This document shows, piece by piece, positions 16,852 through 26,563 of a DNA stretch of 64,000 nucleotides. Where the stretch lies: the NCBI GenBank assembly GCA_036768485.1, contig JAVLUZ010000154.1:34182973-34246972 (forward strand), read 5' to 3'. The DNA comes from Mermis nigrescens (taxonomy: Eukaryota; Nematoda; Enoplea; Mermithida; Mermithidae). The position numbers and the translations under genes are program-made. Every line of letters begins with the position of its first letter. Position 1 is the stretch's first letter. The notes beneath the pieces are model-generated. The model saw only the letters and a program-made list of their open reading frames with translations, had not been told where the DNA came from and did no database searches.

Positions 16852-17262
16852 GTAGTATAGCCTGTGTCCCTAGGGTGCAACACAAAGTATATACAGCTAT
16901 GTTTTGTGTTATAGGCCCCGCCCACCCGATCGCAGAGCAGCAGCCTCTCCTGTGTTATAGCATAGGCGGAGTAGCGCCCTGGCTTGCGCCCTGGCTTTTC
17001 TCTCAGGGCGCAATGATGAGGCATGGGGAAGCTGAGCAAGCCAATGAATTAACATACATATTGTAAGGTGCATACCTACACGATTAAAAAATTGGCGAAA
17101 CAGTGTGCGTAATAACGCGCATTGTCGAAGCATTTTTTGCAGCTGGTAATATCGCGCATTGGCAGCGAATTTATAATAAGGATTACTGGCGAAGCTACAT
17201 AGACTGAAACATGATGAATATAATAAGCGCATTGGCAGCGAATTTATAATAAGCGCATTTTG
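16852..17262 (+). repeat. Polinton left terminal inverted repeat
   Basis: It is the inverse of 26150-26563, with about five substitutions and one 4-bp indel over ~411 bp. It begins GTAGTATAGCCTG and ends GCGCATTTTG. It contains two direct copies of GCGCATTGGCAGCGAATTTA (about 17153 and 17229). Confidence 0.93.
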
Positions 17263-17278
17263 CTCAAATATGCAATGA

Positions 17279-17731
17279 CTATATTGCTATTTTGACTGCC
17301 GCATGATGCTTTAAAATATCATTTTTAATAAAGCGAATAATGTAGAGGATGGTTAGAGTGCATAACATTGCAATACAACTCAAAATCTCATTTGAAATGA
17401 TATTCAAATCTTCTTTATGTCTGCATTTTATATCGCTTTCCAAACACCTGCCTTCAATTTTTATTCCATTAAAATGCTCATCAATTTTCAAACAGCTTTT
17501 ACATTTAGGCACAAATTTCATAGACTCAAGTTTTGGTAAGCATGTTGTCAAATTTTTCCAATCGGAAACTTGAAAATCACAGCTGTCTCTCAAAATCATG
17601 TTTTGGACTGATCTTGGAAGCCTACTATAGTCTGCTAAATTATGACACACTACCGTAGACTCATTCGCATAATCATCACAGTATGCGTCAATCCCGTATG
17701 TAAAATGCAAAACCACTAGCAAGAAAATCAT
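17279..17731 (-). CDS. Putative type I membrane glycoprotein (150 aa)
   Basis: Not recognised by family. Residues 1-17 form a hydrophobic signal peptide. Residues 18-114 form an ectodomain with eight cysteines (18, 29, 51, 64, 77, 80, 96, 103) and an N-glycosylation site NES at 24. Residues 115-135 (around ILSCIAMLCTLTILYIIRFI) are a transmembrane segment, followed by a short basic tail. It is the last gene of the leftward block, next to the left TIR. A TATA-like box sits at 17758-17767. Position and topology suggest a virion-membrane, attachment or host-interaction protein, but this is inference. It is far smaller than the herpes-gB-like fusogens reported from some nematode Mavericks and shows no resemblance to them. 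Confidence 0.7.
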   Translation of the reverse strand: MIFLLVVLHFTYGIDAYCDDYANESTVVCHNLADYSRLPRSVQNMILRDSCDFQVSDWKNLTTCLPKLESMKFVPKCKSCLKIDEHFNGIKIEGRCLESDIKCRHKEDLNIISNEILSCIAMLCTLTILYIIRFIKNDILKHHAAVKIAI

Positions 17732-17757
17732 TTTTTATATTTTCTGATCGATGGTTT

Positions 17758-17767
17758 GTATTTATAA
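17758..17767 (-). promoter_or_regulatory. TATA-like box for the 150-aa membrane protein
   Basis: The minus strand reads TTATAAATAC, 26 nt upstream of the ATG at 17731. The box lies immediately beside the stop codon of the 258-aa gene. Confidence 0.65.
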
Positions 17768-17768
17768 C

Positions 17769-18545
17769 CTACTGGCGTCTAAAATGCAATTTAACTATAG
17801 TCTTGCCAAATTCAAAAGGCACAGGTTTATCTTGATCACTTTTAATGTTCACTTCAATGGTATTGAATGATTTTTTGAGCACAGGTATATAATGTGGAGT
17901 AATATATGCATGATTAACAATATCCATATATTTTCCTTCTATATTCACAACCTGCAGAAGTGGTGCAAAAACATTTCCAACGATTTGAGGTTCAACTATA
18001 TCACAATACACGTAAAAATTATGCATTCCACCCAGCATGTCAGGAGAATGATGGGCAGCTATGATTAATTCTTGTGCGACAGTATAATTTATATCGCTAA
18101 GCTGACTTTCTAGAAATCCTAGCATATACATTAAATGCTTTGTCAGCTTTACACTTCGAATATATTCAGTATTGATTGTTAAGTGACAAAATTTTCCATT
18201 TTCATCATACTTTATACCAAAATATTGCATGTATTCAAATTTTTCTTTCAAACTAACCATTTTTATTCCCTCACTGATTGTTTTAACAAGATCATGTATA
18301 TTTAGATATCTTGCTCGAGGAATAAGCATTTTTATTCGAACATTATTTTTTAAATCGTAAAATTGTATCATATTCTGCTCCTCGGCAACATTGTGCCATG
18401 TATTTGCATAAATTATTTCGGATAACCCAACATCCCAGTCACCAGTTAATGCGATTTGTCTAGGCAGATTGGTAACAAATGTGGCTGCAGTATTTGTTTC
18501 TTGGGAATTGCTCGGAAGCGTTACGTAAAACTGTTTTGTATCCAT
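17769..18545 (-). CDS. Penton-like minor capsid protein candidate (258 aa)
   Basis: The N-terminus MDTKQFYVTLPSNSQ, then FVTNLPRQIALTGDWDVGLS and EIIYANTWHN, follows a pattern I associate with the conserved companion of F54H12.2-type capsid genes in invertebrate Polintons (FYxTLPSNSS...LPxPIxLxGxWEVGLxEIxYPxTW). That companion is generally treated as a penton/minor jelly-roll protein. Beta-strand-rich composition with few lysine clusters fits a capsid fold. The ATG follows the protease stop by two bases (TAAACATG). A variant TATA box lies at 18568-18578. The penton role rests on synteny and remembered family pattern, not on a structural test. Confidence 0.7.
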   Translation of the reverse strand: MDTKQFYVTLPSNSQETNTAATFVTNLPRQIALTGDWDVGLSEIIYANTWHNVAEEQNMIQFYDLKNNVRIKMLIPRARYLNIHDLVKTISEGIKMVSLKEKFEYMQYFGIKYDENGKFCHLTINTEYIRSVKLTKHLMYMLGFLESQLSDINYTVAQELIIAAHHSPDMLGGMHNFYVYCDIVEPQIVGNVFAPLLQVVNIEGKYMDIVNHAYITPHYIPVLKKSFNTIEVNIKSDQDKPVPFEFGKTIVKLHFRRQ

Positions 18546-18547
18546 GT

Positions 18548-18964
18548 TTATAATTCTAGTTTATTAAAGTATTTATTAATTTTTTTACTGAGCATAGACA
18601 GAACAATGTTTGTGAAACTTATGCCTTGGCTCATGCAGACCAAAAAGTAGATACACATATGACCACAGCTAATTGAAAAAAGCCCTTGTACTTGCATATT
18701 ATTGTATGTAAATGAGAGCGCATTATCAGAAATGTATTGATGTAATTGAATATTTGGTTCTAACCCATAGCTGTCAAAATAGTCGCAATGCTTCTTATTT
18801 TGGAAATAAATTGCGACCCAGTGCGATCCTGGTTCCTTACTGGAGTCCAAATTTACAACCAGAGCCGCAGGGTAATTTTTTATAGGTGGCAGAAGATCTA
18901 TGGGGAAAACGCCTGCAAATATATTATCATGTCTGAGAATTTTGAATATTTCAATAGTGTTCAT
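18548..18964 (-). CDS. Adenain-like maturation cysteine protease (138 aa)
   Basis: The protein is short and carries the adenovirus-protease (C5/C48-like) catalytic order: His48 in GSHWVAIYF, Asp64 in DYFDSYG, Gln93 in NMQVQG, and Cys100 in SISCGHMC. In Polintons and adenoviruses this enzyme cleaves capsid precursor proteins during virion maturation. It lies directly downstream of the major capsid gene with a two-base gap (TAA-AC-ATG). It has no TATA-like box of its own, which suggests translation from the capsid transcript. All catalytic residues are present, so activity is plausible. Confidence 0.87.
   Translation of the reverse strand: MNTIEIFKILRHDNIFAGVFPIDLLPPIKNYPAALVVNLDSSKEPGSHWVAIYFQNKKHCDYFDSYGLEPNIQLHQYISDNALSFTYNNMQVQGLFSISCGHMCIYFLVCMSQGISFTNIVLSMLSKKINKYFNKLEL
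18568..18578 (-). promoter_or_regulatory. Variant TATA-like box for the penton-like gene
   Basis: The minus strand reads TAATAAATACT, 23 nt upstream of the ATG at 18545, inside the 3' end of the protease ORF. It departs from CTATAAATACT at its 5' end. Confidence 0.45.
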
Positions 18965-18966
18965 GT

Positions 18967-20280
18967 TTATGCATCATAGTCATGAAACGTGTTTCGATTT
19001 TTATCAATCATTATTAAGTTATCAAATTCAGCATATATAATGATTTCAATGCCAGAATCTGGCAAATTTTCAGAAAACCTAACAGCGATGCTCGTTGTTC
19101 CTTCACGAACTAGGTCCCAGTGTCCTCCATCATCTGCATCAGGGGTCAAATCGAACACAAAGAAGCAGTGACTTGTTTTAAAATCTTCTCTGCTAATAAA
19201 ATTACCTTCGTGCCCAATATCTAATGCATCAAACATCTGAGTATAAGCTTGCAAGTACCTGTCATGTTTAAATGAAATGCTGAGTGGGTAAGCAGGATAT
19301 GTTATACCTCCACACGTTACTTTTACATCATTTATGCTGAACGGTTTGAAGTTGAATGGCGATTTTGCCAAGTTGCCTCGATAAGCACTGCCTTCAACAC
19401 AGGCAAACACTATACGCCTAGGCAGCTGACCAGTGAACAATGTATAATTGGGCGTTTCTCTCGCAGGATTTGAAATGTGCAAATTAGTCAAAGCTACACG
19501 CCTTATGGGATATTTTGCTGTATATGAAAGCATTGTTTGCTCAAGGGCTAAATTCACAGTGTCCAAAACCTCAACTTTTCGAATAAATAATTTCATTTGG
19601 GAGACTTTTAAGTCAAGGCTGACATCCTCAAAGCACTGCAAAACAAATGCATTATTATTTCTGTGTAATTCTAGGCGGAAATCGGTAAAATTAACTAAAT
19701 ATCTGTCTTGCAAGAACATGTCAATGTGCAGTGGGGCCGCGACTTCCACAACATTTTCATCTTTGAACATTTTTGAACGTTTCTTGAAAGCTTCATTCTC
19801 TTTTGTGTCAACATCGCCTCCACCTTCATGAAAGTACAGCGCAGATTGCAAGTGTGAATGTTTGGCATCGTACCCATAATTCAATTCAGTTTCGAAATAT
19901 GATCTATATGCATATTTATCAGAGCTGTCAAAAACTAATTTGCCTCCTAAAAAGCATTTTACTTGCTTGAAGAAAGTCTTACCAATAAGATTGATAGGCG
20001 CATAGTCAGGCACTGCTGCTCCAGCAGCAACAACTGGTTTTTTGATTCTCAGTAGCATATAAATGTAGTTTTTATTGAGCTGAATATAATGTGGATCAGG
20101 AGGTACTCTAAATTCATAGGGCCCCTCATTGGTAATAGGATTTGTTGGTTGAATTTCATGCCAAAAACCGCGTTTTATCACTACTTGAGTAGGAGGGACC
20201 GTGAAAAGGTCCAATTCAGTTTTAGTACTGGGAATAGATTTTCCGTTTACGAGAGCCATTTTTTTGTTTCGAAAAAGCAT
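18967..20280 (-). CDS. Major capsid protein, F54H12.2-like (437 aa)
   Basis: The N-terminal block MALVNGKSIPSTKTELDLFT, then VPPTQVVIKRGFW, matches the F54H12.2-like family (MALVHxxSEExxKSELDLFxVPPTQTSIE) typical of invertebrate Polintons/adintoviruses, thought to be the double-jelly-roll hexon. Further family-like parts are NLIGKTFFKQVKCFLGGKLV and a YAYRSYFETELNYGYDAK stretch. The first ATG is at 20280; an internal ATG at MALV (20256) is equally plausible and agrees better with relatives. A canonical CTATAAATACT lies at 20290-20301. Its 5' end overlaps the stop region of the upstream 148-aa gene. The ORF is unbroken. Confidence 0.87.
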   Translation of the reverse strand: MLFRNKKMALVNGKSIPSTKTELDLFTVPPTQVVIKRGFWHEIQPTNPITNEGPYEFRVPPDPHYIQLNKNYIYMLLRIKKPVVAAGAAVPDYAPINLIGKTFFKQVKCFLGGKLVFDSSDKYAYRSYFETELNYGYDAKHSHLQSALYFHEGGGDVDTKENEAFKKRSKMFKDENVVEVAAPLHIDMFLQDRYLVNFTDFRLELHRNNNAFVLQCFEDVSLDLKVSQMKLFIRKVEVLDTVNLALEQTMLSYTAKYPIRRVALTNLHISNPARETPNYTLFTGQLPRRIVFACVEGSAYRGNLAKSPFNFKPFSINDVKVTCGGITYPAYPLSISFKHDRYLQAYTQMFDALDIGHEGNFISREDFKTSHCFFVFDLTPDADDGGHWDLVREGTTSIAVRFSENLPDSGIEIIIYAEFDNLIMIDKNRNTFHDYDA

Positions 20281-20665
20281 CAATCATGCTAGTATTTATA
20301 GACTTTGGGCGACTACCAAGACCCTCTCCTTGCTGCTGCTGAAGGGCATGAGAGGCTTCATCAAAAAGTTGTGCAGCTTCTCGCTTTGAGTGTTCTTTAG
20401 TTGACTCAAAAAGCGGTTTTCCTTGGGCCAAGTCAGACGCTATGTTTGAACCTGCAACTAGAGCATGTTTTCCAACTTGCTTACCAATTGACTGCAAAAC
20501 TGGGACTGCCATTCTGAAAAGCGAACGAAAAAAGCTGCCAAGACCCACGCCCCGCTGGTATGGGATGCCTTTATACCCTTCCAACCCATAGCCTGTTTGG
20601 GCAGCCTGCCCTGTGTAATAGTCCAACCAAATGTTGTAATCGTTAGGATTGAATTGAACGTGCAT
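20222..20665 (-). CDS. Small core/minor capsid-like protein (147 aa)
   Basis: The start was placed at the ATG of MHVQFNPNDYNIW (20665), because the TATA-like box at 20701-20711 lies between it and the further-upstream frame start. The conserved Polinton pattern GLGSFFRSLFRMAVPVLQSI, GKQVGKHALVAGSNIASDL is clear at residues ~43-84; it is amphipathic and basic. The family has been compared with adenovirus core or protein-VI-like components. GLG motifs on either side of this region could be maturation-protease sites (inference). The C-terminal SINTS is encoded by the promoter box of the capsid gene. The C-terminus is lysine/arginine rich, suiting DNA or membrane contact. Confidence 0.75.
   Translation of the reverse strand: MHVQFNPNDYNIWLDYYTGQAAQTGYGLEGYKGIPYQRGVGLGSFFRSLFRMAVPVLQSIGKQVGKHALVAGSNIASDLAQGKPLFESTKEHSKREAAQLFDEASHALQQQQGEGLGSRPKSINTSMIDAFSKQKNGSRKRKIYSQY
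20290..20301 (-). promoter_or_regulatory. Canonical TATA-like box for the major capsid gene
   Basis: The minus strand reads CTATAAATACTA, ending 9 nt before the first ATG (20280) and ~34 nt before the MALV ATG (20256). It doubles as coding sequence (SINTS) for the upstream gene. Confidence 0.8.
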
Positions 20666-20700
20666 TTTTGTAATTTTGTTTGAAGGAATTAAATATGATA

Positions 20701-20711
20701 AGTATTTATAG
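20701..20711 (-). promoter_or_regulatory. Canonical TATA-like box for the 147-aa gene
   Basis: The minus strand reads CTATAAATACT about 36 nt upstream of the ATG at 20665. The TAA stop of the 188-aa gene is formed by the TATAA core itself. Confidence 0.8.
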
Positions 20712-21272
20712 ACTTTCATCCCAGTCGAATTCACTACCTGCAGCAAAAATCTCCTTACCTTGTCTATTTGCTATACTTTCCAGTGGAACATTTGTGCGAT
20801 TAAACACTTTCAGCAATTCTTTTGTGCCAGGATGCCTACTTATTTTCTTACGCTCACGTGCAAGATCATTAACTAAATCTGTAATGTTTGAGCCTTCAAT
20901 TTTATTGCCATCTATCACAAGCTCGCCATCAGGCTCAATTTCAATAAATGGATTTGTACGAATGTAGTGAAGAAGGAGTTTGGCCTTTGGAATCTGATTT
21001 TTTGGCATACCAACGAGCACATCTTCATCACTCAAAGCATTTTTTGCATCTTTAACTATACTAGCTCTATATGGCTGCTGCTTTTGTTCATATAGTCGTT
21101 TAAATCTGTTAAGCGCCTGATTGTATTTCATGAGTTTTATTTCAGGAGCTACACTTTTGCTATGCAAAACTTTTTGCATTTTATTATCCAAGGAATCTAG
21201 CACAACATCAATAGGTTTAGTCCGCTCACTGATTTCAGCAGGTATAAGAATCATCTTTTCAGTATGTTTCAT
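20706..21272 (-). CDS. Conserved Polinton protein of unknown function (188 aa)
   Basis: The layout resembles a conserved family found between capsid and ATPase genes of invertebrate Polintons: an N-terminal KMILIPAE segment, a helical KYNQALNRFKRLYEQKQ block (~residues 49-65), then IPKAKLLLHYIRTNPFIEI and DGNKIEGSNITDLVNDLAR, and an acidic tail (FDWDESL). I know no established function; a virion or packaging role is inferred from position. Its ATG overlaps the stop of the preceding gene as ATGA, and no TATA-like box lies upstream, implying translational coupling. Confidence 0.72.
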   Translation of the reverse strand: MKHTEKMILIPAEISERTKPIDVVLDSLDNKMQKVLHSKSVAPEIKLMKYNQALNRFKRLYEQKQQPYRASIVKDAKNALSDEDVLVGMPKNQIPKAKLLLHYIRTNPFIEIEPDGELVIDGNKIEGSNITDLVNDLARERKKISRHPGTKELLKVFNRTNVPLESIANRQGKEIFAAGSEFDWDESL

Positions 21273-21619
21273 TTTCTACCAACTATTGCATCAGCTAACA
21301 AACTACCAGCTATTGTAAGTATAGGAGTAAGTAAAAGAGGAAGGAAACCACCTTCCTGTATTATAATATCTTTCTTTTGTTTTGTAGTTGCCTGCCTATT
21401 CTTTGCCAGGTATCTTATTTGATTCTGATATCTTCGAAGTTTATTTATATCCTTCTCAGCAAAAGGAATATTACCATTCAGAAAGTTGTTTGCACAGTCA
21501 CAGAGACAAAGGATTTGATCTTTGCTGGCAGTATTTATAATAGCGGTTCTTTGAGGTTTTTTTGCTTGACTTAGGAGATGTAAACAACCAATATTGCGTG
21601 TTAATCGTTCTTTACCCAT
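21269..21619 (-). CDS. Conserved small Polinton protein with hydrophobic C-terminus (116 aa)
   Basis: The start was taken at ATG 21619 (MGKERLTR); the longer frame needs a TTG. It carries the pattern CLCDCANNFLNGNIPF, KLRRYQNQIRYLAKN, then KKDIIIQEGGFLPLLLTPIL and a hydrophobic tail, which matches a small protein conserved beside the ATPase in many invertebrate Polintons. The function is unknown; the hydrophobic C-terminus (~93-110) could be membrane-associated. A canonical TATA-like box lies at 21641-21652. It overlaps the ATPase stop by 8 bases (ATGGGTAA). Confidence 0.72.
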   Translation of the reverse strand: MGKERLTRNIGCLHLLSQAKKPQRTAIINTASKDQILCLCDCANNFLNGNIPFAEKDINKLRRYQNQIRYLAKNRQATTKQKKDIIIQEGGFLPLLLTPILTIAGSLLADAIVGRK

Positions 21620-22262
21620 TTTTTGTTGCAATGTCTCTACTAGTATTTATAGATTTTTGCACATAAACAGTTGGATGAGGGCTAAAAATATTTGTTTTAA
21701 GCCTGAGCTCATCTCTAGTATTTTGAGTTAGATCAATTAAAAGGTAACCATGTGGCTGAGAAGTAGCATCTGAATAGGCTTCTAGAAAATATTTAGCGTT
21801 GGCAGGATAGAGCTGCCTAGACAGCATTTGTGCCTGTAGCTGATCAGCAGGGTGTTTGAATAAAACTATATAATCAGAGTTGATGCGTGAAGTTCTTAGA
21901 CCATCAAAGAAAACGTTTTGAACAATGTGTATAATGCTAATGTTCCAATGATGACAACTCCTCGTAAAAAGTTGAACAATCTGGGCATTACCCTTGCTCT
22001 GTTGCATAAGATCATCGAGAATCAAAAGTTGTGGCACATGACTGAATTGTTTCAAGTAATTAAAATCAGGAAGCCCTTCTATAAATAAAACATCATTTAA
22101 TTTTTTATAAAGAGGCTGATTTTCTGCAAAGCACCACCAAATCTTTTTGATTTTAATATCAATCAAGTGTGCTCTTTTTTCAATTAATCGCGTGACAAAT
22201 GTTGTTTTGCCAGACTTAGTTGGTCCTGAAACAAGGCAGGTGAAAGGATGTTGGAACATCAT
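21612..22262 (-). CDS. FtsK/HerA-type DNA-packaging ATPase (216 aa)
   Basis: The Walker A motif SGPTKSGKTT is at residues 12-21 and the Walker B motif LLILDDL at 79-85; the hydrophobic run before the acidic pair is typical of packaging ATPases of Polintons and related viruses. Conserved extras include HWNISIIHIVQNVF and YLLIDLTQNTRDELRLKTNI at the C-terminus. It pumps genome DNA into preformed capsids using ATP. It heads the leftward structural block. The divergent TBP gene starts 46 bp away, and two TATA-like boxes occupy the shared intergenic space. Its last residues (KSINTS) are encoded by the promoter box of the next gene. Confidence 0.9.
   Translation of the reverse strand: MMFQHPFTCLVSGPTKSGKTTFVTRLIEKRAHLIDIKIKKIWWCFAENQPLYKKLNDVLFIEGLPDFNYLKQFSHVPQLLILDDLMQQSKGNAQIVQLFTRSCHHWNISIIHIVQNVFFDGLRTSRINSDYIVLFKHPADQLQAQMLSRQLYPANAKYFLEAYSDATSQPHGYLLIDLTQNTRDELRLKTNIFSPHPTVYVQKSINTSRDIATKNG
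21641..21652 (-). promoter_or_regulatory. Canonical TATA-like box for the 116-aa gene
   Basis: The minus strand reads CTATAAATACTA about 22 nt upstream of ATG 21619, inside the ATPase coding region, where it encodes SINTS. Confidence 0.75.
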
Positions 22263-22270
22263 GGTTATAG

Positions 22271-22280
22271 GTATAAATAT
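22271..22280 (+). promoter_or_regulatory. TATA-like box for the TBP gene
   Basis: The plus strand reads GTATAAATAT, about 28 nt upstream of the ATG at 22308. It faces away from the ATPase promoter in the same short intergenic gap. Confidence 0.7.
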
Positions 22281-22292
22281 AAGTTTATCATG

Positions 22293-22304
22293 AAGTATTT
22301 ATAG
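22293..22304 (-). promoter_or_regulatory. Canonical TATA-like box for the packaging ATPase
   Basis: The minus strand reads CTATAAATACTT, 31 nt upstream of ATG 22262. Confidence 0.8.
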
Positions 22305-22307
22305 AAA

Positions 22308-22826
22308 ATGGTAACTATACAGAACATTGTGCTGACTACAGCACTACCAAATACGCTGAATCTAGATGATATCTACCCTAAATTGCCAAATACTGCGCAA
22401 TACAATCGCTCGAAATTTCCAGGCATCATATTTCGATTACCTCAGGCAACATTGCTGATTTTCAAGTCGGGTAAAATTGTATGTGTTGGAGCTAAAACTA
22501 CGCAAGAAGGCGAAAATACGATAAAGACATTCATTTATATACTGAAGATGGAGAATTCCATGTTGAAAATAAAGCCAGTGCTGTTTGTTGGCTCAGCTAA
22601 CTTGGGATATCGCATTGATCTTTGTAAGTTTTATGAGCTGGTGAAAAGGAAATGCATGTATGAAGTAGAATTATTTCCCGGATTAGTATACAAATTTAGA
22701 ACAGTGACCTTTTTACTCTTTACAAGTGGGAAAATGATTCTCACAGGTGCAAAACACAAGCATGAGTTGCATATAGCATATAAAATAGTTTCAACAATGC
22801 TTGAGAAATGCAACTTAGATACGTAA
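22308..22826 (+). CDS. Element-encoded TATA-box-binding protein (172 aa)
   Basis: It is a two-repeat TBP core with little else. Repeat 1 covers about residues 5-80 (NIVLTTALP, LLIFKSGKIVCVGAKTT); repeat 2 covers about 89-166 (KPVLFVGSANLGYRIDL, VELFPGLVYKF, FLLFTSGKMILTGAKHKHEL). Eukaryotic TBPs read SGKMVCTGAK and ELFPGLIYR...SGKIVLTGAK at these places. All four phenylalanines that intercalate and kink the TATA box are present (Phe37, Phe52, Phe123, Phe138). TBP nucleates transcription complexes at TATA boxes. Inside this element it probably recognises the element's own CTATAAATACT boxes (inference). It is intronless, divergent and placed between viral ATPase and integrase genes, so it is not a host exon. 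Confidence 0.9.
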   Translation: MVTIQNIVLTTALPNTLNLDDIYPKLPNTAQYNRSKFPGIIFRLPQATLLIFKSGKIVCVGAKTTQEGENTIKTFIYILKMENSMLKIKPVLFVGSANLGYRIDLCKFYELVKRKCMYEVELFPGLVYKFRTVTFLLFTSGKMILTGAKHKHELHIAYKIVSTMLEKCNLDT

Positions 22827-22837
22827 TATTCCAAATT

Positions 22838-23122
22838 TTACAAAACTACAAAACAATTTCCAAACTTTACAAAAAATATTCCAAACTTTACAAAAAATAT
22901 TCCAAACTTTACAAAAAATATTCCAAATTTTACAAAAAATATTCCAAACTTTGCAAAAGTACTATGCTTAAGCACGTAAAATTAATTCCAAACTTTACAA
23001 AAAATATTCCAAATTTTACAAAAAAAATTCCAAACTTTACAAAAAATATTCCAAATTTTACAAAAAAATTTCCAAACTTTACAAAAAATATCCCAAACTT
23101 TACAAAAAATATTGCAAAGTGT
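22838..23122. repeat. 21-bp tandem array between TBP and integrase genes
   Basis: About a dozen units of the form TTCCAAACTTTACAAAAAATA, some varied by one base, sit between the convergent 3' ends of TBP and integrase. A non-repeat spacer (CTATGCTTAAGCAC) interrupts it near 22965 and recurs in the relic element. Because 21 bp is seven codons, one plus-strand frame stays open across it (118 codons from 22808), encoding KLYKKYS- then NFTKNIP-type units. Coding is doubtful. Confidence 0.85.
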
Positions 23123-23143
23123 AAAAATCTGGCCTTTAGACGT

Positions 23144-24202
23144 TTACAACTTTATCAGGTTTGAGACCCAGGAATCAAACTTTTCTGGGTACCCTCGCCA
23201 GCGCACTAAATAATCAGTTTTATTGCCTTTCTTACGCGTTTTCAAAATCTTTTCAACAATAAACAAGTCATCCGAGGATATATCAATTTTTTGCAGTTCA
23301 GGTTCGTAAAAAATACCCTCAACTTTTTCGCCCATTTGGTCTTCTAAAACGTAAACGGGCGGTGTGCGAGCAAACCTCTCCTTAATTATGAAAAACTCCT
23401 CTGTCCAGTTGGGCCAAAATCCTTTCTCAAAAGCGCGCTTAACTTTACTCAGTCGGACTTTATCACCAATATTAAATTTAAAAACAACGTTCTGTTTATC
23501 AATCCTAAATGCTTTATTTAAAATTTCCGTCTCATTTTTAACTGTAACATTAGCTGGCGAGGTACCTATCGTACGATGCTTGGAGTGATTATAGTTTTTC
23601 ATCAAGTCGGGTAATACGTCAATAAATTTATATGAATTGCTCTTGGTGAAGTACCGCCACATACGTTCTTTAAGCGTGCGATTAAAACGTTCAACTACGC
23701 TAGCCTTCATTTCGCTTTTAGTCGTGAAAAAATTGATAGATTCAGATTTAAGAAATTTTTGAAATTCTTTGTTTGTAAATTCGGTCCCTGCGTCTGTTTG
23801 CAGCTTGTACGGTTTTCGATTTGATGAATGCAAAATGCTTTGAAAAGCGGTCAGAACATCTTTTGAACTTTTAGATTTCAAAGGGATGGACCATGCGTAT
23901 TTTGAAAATATGTCTATGCAATTCAAGAGATACTTAAAATTATCGTTAAACTTGCTTAAGGACTGCAGATCTACAATATCACATTGCCATTGCTCATCAA
24001 TGCTACTTACTAACACTTTATTTCGAGAATATCTCTTGAGGGCGGGTTTGTGTAACGTGTAGGTGGGCTGCTTTTCCAACCATTGTTTCACGTAGGACCG
24101 GTCTATTTTTGGCTTTACTTTTTTAGCCCTCTCATATAGCTGTTCCACGCTACTATATCCCGTTTTAGGGTCGTAATATATGTGCTTTAACACTTTTTCC
24201 AT
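23144..24202 (-). CDS. Retroviral-type (RVE) integrase with chromodomain (352 aa)
   Basis: The integrase core shows the DDE triad: Asp75 (QWQCDIVDLQ), Asp137 (LQTDAGTEFTN) and Glu171 (VVERFNRTLKERMW), with 33 residues between the last two, normal for the family. A C-terminal chromodomain at ~312-351 (FIVEKILKTRKK, YLVRWRGYPEKFDSW) probably directs insertion to modified chromatin. Polinton integrases join the linear element DNA into host chromosomes. An N-terminal helical region (~1-65) is present, without an obvious HHCC finger. The ORF is intact. A variant TATA-like box lies at 24229-24240. Confidence 0.93.
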   Translation of the reverse strand: MEKVLKHIYYDPKTGYSSVEQLYERAKKVKPKIDRSYVKQWLEKQPTYTLHKPALKRYSRNKVLVSSIDEQWQCDIVDLQSLSKFNDNFKYLLNCIDIFSKYAWSIPLKSKSSKDVLTAFQSILHSSNRKPYKLQTDAGTEFTNKEFQKFLKSESINFFTTKSEMKASVVERFNRTLKERMWRYFTKSNSYKFIDVLPDLMKNYNHSKHRTIGTSPANVTVKNETEILNKAFRIDKQNVVFKFNIGDKVRLSKVKRAFEKGFWPNWTEEFFIIKERFARTPPVYVLEDQMGEKVEGIFYEPELQKIDISSDDLFIVEKILKTRKKGNKTDYLVRWRGYPEKFDSWVSNLIKL

Positions 24203-24228
24203 TTTTTAAACATTTTATAACAGTCCAT

Positions 24229-24240
24229 CTATTTATTAAC
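24229..24240 (-). promoter_or_regulatory. Variant TATA-like box for the integrase
   Basis: The minus strand reads GTTAATAAATAG, about 27 nt upstream of ATG 24202. It is a weaker match than the other boxes. Confidence 0.45.
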
Positions 24241-24249
24241 ATCATTCTG

Positions 24250-24260
24250 TCTATAAATAA
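24250..24260 (+). promoter_or_regulatory. TATA-like box for the polymerase-N-like gene
   Basis: The plus strand reads TCTATAAATAA, 31 nt upstream of ATG 24292. Confidence 0.7.
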
Positions 24261-24291
24261 CGATTAGTAAGTATGTAGTTTTAATTTGAAA

Positions 24292-25065
24292 ATGGAGCAG
24301 TACTTTGAAGTACATGAGCTCCCACACATTTCTGTTCGTAGGTTTAGGACAACCGCTAAGGCATTTTTGTTGCGTTTCAAGAAATGCCCTAATCTCTTTG
24401 AGATTTTCGAACAGATTTTTGAAAAAGCTATTAACCTGATGTTGCGTGGCTGTCCTTATGACAGTATGGTAGGCATTGAAATTAGACAGCCAAGCCTCTA
24501 TACGCCTGTGTTAGTACCATTCACTCAACGTCAATACATAAATGCTGACAAGGTTTTGAGTATTATAGAAAAGGTGGCTCAGTCCCAAAAAGACTTTTGT
24601 TTAAGTGAAGACTTGACTTTCAAAGTAGTTCTGGTGGACAAAAAACCCCAAATGGGTACCGGTTATGACTTTGAAGTAGGTGACTTTTGCAAAAATGGTG
24701 GGGCATATATTAAAATCACATCAAACGATAATTTATCATTAGCCAGAGCTGTTGTAACAGGTATAGCAAAGCTAGACAACTGCCCTAAGTGGGAATCTGT
24801 TCGGAAAGGTGACAAAGGACGGCACACTCTGCAAAAGCAACTTGCATTAGAGCTGATGCACAAAGCTGATCTAAGCATTAATGACGAGAAATATGGACTT
24901 GAAGCTATAGACAAAATTCAAAAGAGTCTGGTGCCAGACTACCAAATAAAAGTTTATCATGGCAATATTTTGTACTTTCAAGGGCCTGAGGCTGAGAAAG
25001 TAATTCACTTGCACGCTGCTAATAATCATTATGATCTAATAACAAAAATGCCTGAGAAGCCCTAG
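24292..25065 (+). CDS. Stand-alone N-terminal module of Polinton PolB ORF (257 aa)
   Basis: Start at ATG 24292 (MEQYFEVHELPHISV). The sequence follows a pattern I know from the region N-terminal to the exonuclease/polymerase of invertebrate Maverick PolB ORFs: a VLVPFTQRQYINADKVLSII segment, then KITSNDNLSLARAVVTGIAK (compare NxDxLCLARAI), DYQIKVYHGN, and NNHYDLITKMP (compare HYDVITSM) at the end. The ORF then stops. In relatives a cysteine-rich segment, 3'-5' exonuclease and polymerase palm follow; none of these motifs occurs anywhere in the element. The module's biochemical role is unclear; it may act in replication or be kept for another use. Two hairpin/T-run signals follow its stop. Confidence 0.7.
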   Translation: MEQYFEVHELPHISVRRFRTTAKAFLLRFKKCPNLFEIFEQIFEKAINLMLRGCPYDSMVGIEIRQPSLYTPVLVPFTQRQYINADKVLSIIEKVAQSQKDFCLSEDLTFKVVLVDKKPQMGTGYDFEVGDFCKNGGAYIKITSNDNLSLARAVVTGIAKLDNCPKWESVRKGDKGRHTLQKQLALELMHKADLSINDEKYGLEAIDKIQKSLVPDYQIKVYHGNILYFQGPEAEKVIHLHAANNHYDLITKMPEKP

Positions 25066-25125
25066 GCTTGGCTGGCATCAATGCTGTAAGCAAATTGCTT
25101 CGCCAATGCGCTAGCAGGTTATTAG

Positions 25126-25148
25126 TGGTGGGCAACCACCATTTTTTT
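25126..25148 (+). terminator. Hairpin plus T-run after the polymerase-N-like gene (1)
   Basis: A perfect 6-bp stem TGGTGG-GCAA-CCACCA is followed at once by seven T on the plus strand, 61 nt after the stop. It could mark the transcript 3' end. The resemblance to intrinsic terminators is suggestive only. Confidence 0.4.
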
Positions 25149-25165
25149 ACACACACACACATGAT

Positions 25166-25190
25166 GCCTCTGAGAGGCGCTAATTTTTTT
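25166..25190 (+). terminator. Hairpin plus T-run after the polymerase-N-like gene (2)
   Basis: A GCCTC-TGA-GAGGC stem is followed within a few bases by a seven-T run, 18 bp beyond the first hairpin. An (AC)5 run separates the two. Confidence 0.4.
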
Positions 25191-25222
25191 GGTTTTTTTA
25201 TTTTTCAATTCAATCAAATCGT

Positions 25223-25549
25223 TTATAATACACGACTAACTCGCTCGTTTAGGCAATTTTCATACATGCTTTCCCATGTATTTTTGCCATTTTGATCGAA
25301 ATCTTGCCATAAATCTAAAATAGGCTCGATTTCACGATTTATTAGGCATCGTTTCACATAAAGCGCAAAATTCCAAAATGCTTTCCGATTATCGAGGCTT
25401 TTGCGATTTTCTTTGTATTCTTCAGAAAGCAAACTCCAAAAGCAGGAGCCAATGTTTTGTACATCGTGAGAAGTGATGTACCTTGTACTGGCTTTATCAG
25501 CCAACTTGGTCACAAAATGATTAAAACTCAATTCACCTTGAGAACTCAT
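25223..25549 (-). CDS. Orphan Polinton protein (108 aa)
   Basis: Not recognised. The protein is mainly helical-looking, tryptophan- and asparagine-rich (SCFWSLLSEEYKENRKSL, KAFWNFALYVKRCL, ILDLWQDFDQNGKNTWESMY), with no signal peptide, membrane segment or known motif. Its own TATA-like box (TTATAAATATG on the minus strand, 25579-25590) is about 30 nt upstream, which supports it as a real gene. Small genes near the integrase-side end of Polintons are often element-specific accessory genes; a role in host interaction is inference. Confidence 0.6.
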   Translation of the reverse strand: MSSQGELSFNHFVTKLADKASTRYITSHDVQNIGSCFWSLLSEEYKENRKSLDNRKAFWNFALYVKRCLINREIEPILDLWQDFDQNGKNTWESMYENCLNERVSRVL

Positions 25550-25578
25550 TTTGTAGATACTTTTTGTCAGATATCGCT

Positions 25579-25590
25579 CATATTTATAAC
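25579..25590 (-). promoter_or_regulatory. TATA-like box for the 108-aa orphan
   Basis: The minus strand reads GTTATAAATATG, 30 nt upstream of ATG 25549. Confidence 0.6.
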
Positions 25591-25591
25591 T

Positions 25592-25915
25592 TTACAAGCC
25601 ATTTTTCGCTTCTTCAACCTGTTGAGCAACATATTTCTTAATCACCATGTTCCCAGCCTCCTGGGATGCCCTATTATACTCACAACATCTTGGGCACATT
25701 TGAACGTTGAAATACCATTTTCCTGAATTTGTTTCAAAAACGTCTTTTTCAGACGAATTTTTTTGACAAAAATGACATAAATGTATCATGAGAGGGTACA
25801 TGGGACGCTCCAGATTCCTCCCGCATAACTCAATAGGCGGTCGTATTGTCCGCCCATAAGGTTTCTTTTCCTCATCCGTGAAAGGACGTTTTTTCAGTTC
25901 GATAATTTCCTCCAT
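25592..25915 (-). CDS. Zinc-ribbon-like small protein (107 aa)
   Basis: Two CxxC knuckles, Cys47-Cys50 (HLCHFCQK) and Cys74-Cys77 (QMCPRCCEY), 23 residues apart, make a zinc-ribbon-like fold likely. Between them lies WYFNVQM, typical of ribbon beta strands. The N-terminus is charged (EEIIELKKRPFTDEEKKPYG) and the C-terminus helical. Zinc ribbons are common in transcription factors (TFIIB, TFIIS) and viral late factors, so this could partner the element's TBP, but that is speculation from context. A canonical TATA-like box is at 25947-25957. Confidence 0.6.
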   Translation of the reverse strand: MEEIIELKKRPFTDEEKKPYGRTIRPPIELCGRNLERPMYPLMIHLCHFCQKNSSEKDVFETNSGKWYFNVQMCPRCCEYNRASQEAGNMVIKKYVAQQVEEAKNGL

Positions 25916-25946
25916 TTTGAAGTTTTAAATTAATAAAAGAATTAAT

Positions 25947-25957
25947 AGTATTTATAG
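25947..25957 (-). promoter_or_regulatory. Canonical TATA-like box for the zinc-ribbon-like gene
   Basis: The minus strand reads CTATAAATACT, 31 nt upstream of ATG 25915. Confidence 0.8.
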
Positions 25958-26002
25958 ATTTTGCAAGTCCAAAACGGCTTGGAAATTGGGGGTTGAACTT
26001 CT

Positions 26003-26063
26003 AGTCTAGAGCGGCGGTCTACCCCTTGAATGATTAAGATGCAGTAGACCGTGGACCTAGACT
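26003..26063. other. Imperfect 20-bp inverted repeat next to the right TIR
   Basis: Arms 26003-26022 and 26044-26063 pair as AGTCTAG / CGGTCTAC against their inverses, with a five-base internal mismatch and a 21-nt loop. The right arm runs into the TATA-like box at 26062. It could be an operator, a replication element or a structured leader; no further support was seen. Confidence 0.5.
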
Positions 26064-26070
26064 ATAAATA
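26062..26070 (+). promoter_or_regulatory. TATA-like box pointing into the right TIR
   Basis: The plus strand reads CTATAAATA. Its spacing to the ATG at 26095 (24 nt) is like that of other boxes in the element. Confidence 0.5.
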
Positions 26071-26094
26071 AATATTTCATCACACGCACTTAAA

Positions 26095-26217
26095 ATGGAT
26101 AATCCTGGCGCGAGCATTGTCAATTTAATGCTATTGCTTCGCCAGTCAACAAAATGCGCTTATTATAAATTCGCTGCCAATGCGCTTATTATATTCATCA
26201 TGTTTCAGTCTATGTAG
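26095..26217 (+). CDS. Possible 40-aa peptide reading into the right TIR
   Basis: A short frame starting MDNPGASIVNLMLLLRQST lies correctly placed behind a TATA-like box. It ends at TAG in the TIR after a hydrophobic segment (ALIIFIMF). No homologue is known to me. It may be a genuine micro-gene, the 5' stump of a lost gene, or chance. Most of it lies in TIR sequence, so the left TIR holds its 3' part without the promoter. Confidence 0.3.
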   Translation: MDNPGASIVNLMLLLRQSTKCAYYKFAANALIIFIMFQSM

Positions 26218-26563
26218 CTTCGCCAGTAATCCTTATTATAAATTCGCTGCCAATGCGCGATATTACCAGCTGCAAAAAATGCTTCGTCAATGCGCTTATT
26301 ACGCACACTGTTTCGCCAATTTTTTAATCGTGTAGGTATGCACCTTACAATATGTATGTTAATTCATTGGCTTGCTCAGCTTCCCCTTCCATGCCTCATC
26401 ATTGCGCCCTGAGAGAAAAGCCAGGGCGCAAGCCAGGGCGCTACTCCGCCTATGCTATAACACAGGAGAGGCTGCTGCTCTGCGATCGGGTGGGCGGGGC
26501 CTATAACACAAAACATAGCCGTATATACTTTGTGTTGCACCCTAGGGACGCAGGCTATACTAC
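26150..26563 (-). repeat. Polinton right terminal inverted repeat
   Basis: The mirror of 16852-17262, with a few substitutions and a 4-bp insertion near 26388. The outer end is CAGGCTATACTAC. Confidence 0.93.

Follow-up and report, generated by a model that had tools for sequence, protein, structure and literature searches.

Our analysis of a 64,000-nucleotide stretch of Mermis nigrescens DNA (hereafter the window), which lies on a 48.8-Mb contig, revealed a short Polinton that encodes a genuine TATA-box-binding protein (TBP), both by sequence and by fold, and this gene belongs to the mobile unit in which it is found. In addition, a TATA-like octamer, TATAAATA, recurs upstream of the element genes, a pattern that is new here. 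These observations suggest that the element carries part of its own gene-reading machinery, and we consider it likely that the protein is a working TBP of a Polinton lineage that binds the element boxes and recruits host TFIIB and RNA polymerase II.

The TBP gene (22308-22826, + strand) is a single intact open reading frame of 172 codons with an ATG start, no internal stops and no intron. The PF00352 profile matched its product in two stretches, corresponding to both repeats of the TBP core (E-value 2.1e-41; 140.1 bits against a curated cut-off of 22.9), and a phmmer search of PDB chains matched the Sulfolobus TBP 1mp9 (5.4e-30), with human TBP at ~1e-21 and the eukaryotic TBPs at ~1e-21 to 1e-18. 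An AlphaFold2 model based on a 13-row alignment (A1) had a pTM of 0.79 and a mean pLDDT of 92.3, and all 44 PDB matches that Foldseek returned for this model at E-values of 0.001 or less contain a TBP; the top match was 1mp9 (6.1e-17, 42% identity), and the saddle fold is present, as seen in the superposition with human TBP 1cdw (TM 0.90). A complete two-repeat TBP core of 172 residues had been read from the sequence in a preliminary description, and both the profile score and the confident match of the model to solved TBPs bear this out; chance is excluded because the score, the model and the preservation of the frame across copies all speak for a TBP.

To compare contact surfaces we used yeast numbering, in which we take F99, F116, F190 and F207 to be the DNA-intercalating phenylalanines, E186 and E188 to contact TFIIB, positions 137, 138, 139, 141 and 145 to form the side facing TFIIA, NC2 and Mot1, and N69, T124, N159 and T215 to be the central minor-groove contacts. 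All four DNA-kinking phenylalanines named in the preliminary description are indeed phenylalanine in the window TBP, as they are in 12 of the 13 element TBPs compared, the exception being the L029 protein with a tyrosine at 207. E186 and E188 are retained in all 13, position 189 being leucine or isoleucine. On the TFIIA/NC2/Mot1 side the host TBP has R137, K138, Y139, R141 and K145; among the element TBPs R137 is retained in one, K138 in ten, Y139 in none, R141 in one and K145 in four, and the window TBP has kept none of the five, positions at which the archaeal TBP rows likewise differ. At 69, 124, 159 and 215 the window TBP has N, V, L and T, and five element TBPs have all four contact residues.

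The element (16852-26563, ~9.7 kb) has 13 main genes and is bounded by ~410-bp terminal inverted repeats (16852-17262 on the left and 26150-26563 on the right, found by a repeat search as blocks that are 99-100% complementary). The TBP gene is located, as first described, between a packaging ATPase of the A32-like type (21612-22262, − strand; PF04665, 1e-4, 22.3 bits, slightly below the cut-off of 22.8) and an integrase with a chromodomain (23144-24202, − strand; rve PF00665, 1e-13; PF00385, 4.7e-9). The other genes with a recognizable product, all on the − strand, encode an adenovirus-type cysteine protease (18548-18964; PF00770, 1.7e-5, above the cut-off), a candidate major capsid protein (18967-20280) with a weak DJR-like domain match (0.02, below the cut-off) and homologs in other element loci, and a 258-residue protein (17769-18545) that is presumably a minor capsid candidate; the latter scored above the cut-off of no Pfam family and has homologs in loci L035, L037 and L044. 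The remaining genes are of unknown function: orf150 (17279-17731), without a Pfam match, orf174 (20222-20719, first ATG at 20719), orf188 (20706-21272), orf120 (21269-21619, first ATG at 21619), orf108 (25223-25549) and orf107 (25592-25915), all on the − strand and with homologs in other element loci, and orf259 (24292-25065, + strand), which has a weak phmmer likeness to the LAGLIDADG endonuclease I-MsoI (3fd2, 2.5e-6) and at least 147 matches in the genome. The convergent TBP and integrase genes are separated by ~13 repeats of a 21-bp unit, TACAAAAAATATTCCAAACTT (22847-23118).

The element shares its terminal inverted repeats, rve integrase, A32-like ATPase, adenovirus-type protease and capsid candidate with Polintons/Mavericks and adintoviruses, but differs from them in its TBP gene and TATAAATA boxes and in that the window copy is without protein-primed DNA polymerase B (PolB), no open reading frame of PolB size being found among those of this copy. 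This short Polinton has retained its integrase, ATPase and capsid candidate, and near-identical copies of it occur elsewhere. No 5-6 bp target-site duplication is visible, the flanks of the two element ends being different, which could be explained by an old or recombined copy.

A search of the 524-Mb genome with the window TBP identified at least 150 copies, of which 135 among those listed are free of stops (some being partial), and eight of the matches listed, including the window copy, are 100% identical. At 15 loci compared, the distance between the TBP gene and orf259 was 1978 bp in eight and 1779-1984 bp in the other seven, and these multiple copies with like spacing rule out a one-copy artefact. 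A genome search with PF00352 identified, among the matches listed, the host TBP as two core exons on contig C73, as well as further TBP families. We fetched 20 places, namely 19 element loci and the host TBP gene; in all 19 element loci one or more of the other window-element genes had a match near the TBP gene, and ten of them had matches to the integrase, capsid, ATPase or protease (L029 to integrase fragments only). The divergent element TBP families have 31-77% identity to the window TBP (P0001). Two of these loci, L037 and L044, hold a 188-residue TBP family that is nearer to eukaryotic TBPs, adjoins the 258-residue gene and not the ATPase, and has gtCTATAAAAG boxes. Another locus, L042 (G000:C724:9000-18900), contains two inverted, partly broken ATPase-TBP regions less than 3 kb apart, followed a few kb farther on by a third TBP from another family.

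The association with other Polinton genes was also evident from proximity counts, for which 121 PF00352 rows were used (rows repeating the window-TBP search and the two host exons being left out). Among the matches listed, 78 of 150 ATPase copies had a TBP within 1.5 kb and 58 of 150 TBP copies had a neighboring ATPase; of the 72 ATPase copies with no TBP among the matches listed, six were fetched and each of the six had a TBP beside it, some in broken frames. A TBP was located within 20 kb of 8 of the 80 PolB places among the matches listed, compared to ~2% of places by chance, and the distance was exactly 14,466 bp at four sites and 14,510 bp at a fifth; from this fixed spacing we conclude that some elements carry PolB and have the TBP at a constant position. 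The preliminary description had left room for a TBP captured in this copy only, and the answer is that the gene travels with the mobile unit, given the at least 150 copies, the company of other element genes at 19 of 19 loci and the TBP at six of six ATPase loci.

The element TBP is under purifying selection, with dN/dS values of 0.07-0.27 in nine of the 12 element TBP pairs tried; two of the 12, outside these nine, gave saturated dS. Comparisons between the window TBP, L035 and L046 gave 0.155-0.169, closer pairs 0.203 and 0.268, and three further TBP families 0.114-0.149; the value of 0.071 for L041 and L033 is unreliable, its dS of 3.46 being saturated. Between the window element and L046, the ATPase had a dN/dS of 0.122 and the integrase one of 0.059, the latter with saturated dS.

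The window TBP is highly diverged from that of its host (34% identity over 146 residues), which is itself 86-88% identical to insect TBPs and a clam TBP, a similarity that by itself makes a protostome host likely. In a 77-row tree, 11 of the 13 element TBPs formed one clade with eight environmental proteins, apart from eukaryotic and archaeal TBPs (bootstrap 99, SH-aLRT 94, the bootstrap not having settled), and the L037/L044 family was placed beside eukaryotic TBPs, its branch having a length of 1.25. A 51-row tree recovered the same clade, here composed of 11 rows from elements and seven environmental ones (97/91), and its support was 88/94 once ten IMG/VR loci were added; all of these trees were built without giant-virus and mirusvirus TBPs. 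In AU tests on the 51 rows, with groups that were defined only once the first tree was known, a clade of all 13 element rows and the environmental rows was compatible with the data (p-AU 0.386), and a clade of the element core with animal TBPs was rejected (p-AU 0.0198). The phylogeny with host TBP that had been proposed as a check thus places 11 of the 13 element TBPs outside cellular TBPs. As for a single origin of all 13, the free tree separates L037/L044, yet one clade fits. Compared to cellular TBPs, archaeal and eukaryotic (PF00352), the window TBP has in common the two-repeat saddle fold, the four phenylalanines and E186/E188, but it has no N-terminal extension, is only ~34% identical to that of the host, has substitutions at most of the eukaryotic TFIIA/NC2/Mot1 positions and falls in a clade of its own.

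The environmental relatives include P0048 (49% identity to the window TBP), P0010 (58% to L047) and P0014 (61% to L033), and with relatives of 49-61% identity the element TBP lineage is therefore not confined to this genome. Scans of IMG/VR with A1, with a capsid alignment (A2), with the integrase and with A3 found no relatives. A scan with cellular TBPs identified the ten loci mentioned above, seven of them forming one group near an archaeal-named row and three being long-branched, in a tree where only some of the 'archaeal' rows are so named and the remainder were placed by the earlier tree. One of the IMG/VR contigs, the 17-kb L065 (IMGVR_UViG_3300000875_000007), has a short, very divergent TBP-like frame, and a plant protein, P0130 of Linum tenue, has a partial plus a whole TBP core in tandem.

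The octamer TATAAATA occurs 13 times in the element on both strands, compared to 1.2 expected from a Markov model (none of 300 simulations reached 13), and 8 times in the remaining 52.5 kb of the window. For seven of the 13 genes, a motif scan placed it 32-41 bp before the first ATG: orf150 (−35; 17759-17766, −), orf120 (−32; 21644-21651, −), the ATPase (−41; 22296-22303, −), the TBP gene (−36; 22272-22279, +), orf259 (−40; 24252-24259, +), orf108 (−39; 25581-25588, −) and orf107 (−41; 25949-25956, −). In 5000 simulations the number of genes with the octamer between −46 and −30 of the first ATG averaged 0.04 and never exceeded 2, compared to the seven of 13 observed. Of two further boxes, one (20293-20300, −) lies at the capsid gene, at −20 relative to its first ATG and −41 relative to a later ATG in the same frame, and the other (20703-20710, −) is at −45 relative to an in-frame ATG inside orf174; a different form, AATAAATA, was found at −35 of the integrase and −32 of the 258-residue gene. 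No box was found upstream of orf188 and the protease, the starts of which abut or overlap the preceding gene, and four of the 13 octamers are upstream of no main gene. The spacer between the ATPase and TBP genes contains two opposed boxes, of which the TBP-facing one is present in every family-1 copy examined; variants of the other were seen in L035 and in one L042 copy.

In the interval from −50 to −28, the form cTATAAATA was found in 20 of the 51 non-TBP rows from the window element and loci L029-L047 and in none of the 22 TBP rows, a difference for which the Fisher p of 0.0003 overstates independence because the rows include near-copies and broken copies. The boxes of the TBP genes were instead gTATAAATA or tTATAAATA, TATAAAAG, TATATAAG, TATATACT or TATAAATT; a TATAWA word was missing from this interval in 7 of the 22 TBP genes and in 21 of the 51 others. 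The matching box of L037 and L044, which count as one lineage because they are near-copies, was gtCTATAAAAG. When the contact residues of the element TBPs were compared with their boxes we saw no residue-to-box code, because five element TBPs keep T124/N159 and yet have the same boxes.

We infer that the TBP is expressed, binds DNA, recruits TFIIB, acts independently of host TBP and escapes host regulators. The protein would bind TATA boxes, mostly gtCTATAAATA, located ~32-45 bp upstream of the element open reading frames, bend them in the usual TBP manner and recruit host TFIIB, and hence host RNA polymerase II, which would start element messages with very short leaders. It may act as a minimal, archaeal-style TBP that is less open to host TBP regulators, which is probable because most of the eukaryotic TFIIA/NC2/Mot1 residues are changed. 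A genome search for TFIIB gave three exon-like matches, two of them with stops, and no multicopy TFIIB family; as no element-encoded TFIIB was found, that of the host would have to be used. The earlier proposal that the element promoters are served by its own TBP is supported by the boxes 32-41 bp upstream of seven of the 13 first ATGs, and of the two mechanisms offered with it, the redirecting of host TFIIB and polymerase fits better with E186/E188 in 13 of 13 proteins and the lack of a multicopy TFIIB family in the genome search, while a bypass of host control is the part that we infer. Counting against our preferred explanation are V124 and L159 in the window TBP, the retention of K138 by 10 of the 13 element TBPs, and the rows without a TATAWA word (7 of 22 and 21 of 51); moreover, the host TBP could equally read TATAAATA. 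A more elaborate version, which we offer tentatively, is that animal Polintons have a TBP lineage outside cellular TBPs and that this gene is read first, from its own box (gTATAAATA, TATAAAAG, TATATAAG or TATATACT), after which the element TBP with host TFIIB would read the gtCTATAAATA promoters of the other genes and evade host TBP regulators; in L037/L044, with gtCTATAAAAG, TBP and box may change together. The order in which the TBP gene comes first is at most suggested by the counts of box forms.

We also considered that the boxes are ordinary host-type TATA boxes read by host TBP/TFIID and that the element TBP is mainly a competitor, titrating host TFIIB or occupying host promoters and so favoring the element indirectly. 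The suitability of TATAAATA as a TATA box for cellular TBPs, the retained TFIIB-contact residues and the loss of two DNA-contact residues in the window TBP agree with this; however, the four intercalating phenylalanines kept in 12 of 13 element TBPs would be needless in a pure TFIIB decoy, and boxes are much more concentrated within the element than in the rest of the window (13 in 9.7 kb compared to 8 in 52.5 kb), such that we regard a competitor as rather unlikely. Yeast retroelements are targeted via host transcription factors, and with this precedent and the TBP gene adjoining the integrase in the window element, the TBP might instead serve integration or replication and not transcription, e.g., by bending target DNA or guiding the chromodomain integrase to promoters. 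We find such a role improbable, as gene order varies (the TBP of L037/L044 adjoins the 258-residue gene) and the box pattern at promoters would be left unexplained.

Viruses commonly capture genes, and the L037/L044 family does group with eukaryotic TBPs, if on a long branch; even so, a recent capture of host TBP with no function in the element is hardly credible to us, and is contradicted by identity, trees and the AU test. The host protein is only 34% identical to the window TBP over 146 residues, a grouping of the element core with animal TBPs had a p-AU of 0.0198, dN/dS is well below 1, and the element families themselves differ (31-77% identity to the window TBP). A functioning TBP that reads the element boxes through host TFIIB is the explanation we retain.

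The statement in the preliminary description that no Polinton or adintovirus TBP had been described agrees with the open-access literature, in which we found neither a Polinton TBP nor a description of how Polintons are transcribed. There was no TBP in Polintons in the consulted sections of PMC10328495, PMC11071308, PMC11071296, PMC10675110, PMC10120064 and PMC8363768, nor in those of PMC8097293, where the term looked for was 'TATA' and not 'TBP'; the comparison also took in sections of PMC12220804. Our findings would place a general transcription factor on a ~10-kb animal mobile element and add a lineage of TBPs that falls outside the sampled cellular branches, which bears on the evolution of TBP and its regulators. 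With an element TBP and its likely cognate boxes, Polinton transcription becomes directly testable, and the pair can serve as a marker for finding related elements.

Giant viruses and mirusviruses likewise have virus-type genomes with their own TBP, which in the sections of PMC10132985 consulted is given for 59% of mirusvirus genomes; they differ from the present case, in which the host is an animal and the element ~10 kb. Sporadic TBP genes are also described, in the sections consulted of PMC10675990, in the mirusvirus-related heliorhodopsin elements of the alga Cymbomonas, which are repeated elements with TBP genes in some, as here, though Cymbomonas is a green alga. The named viral TBP structures most similar to the window TBP are 15-20% identical to it, namely those of Heterosigma akashiwo virus (20%) and Terrestrivirus (15%).
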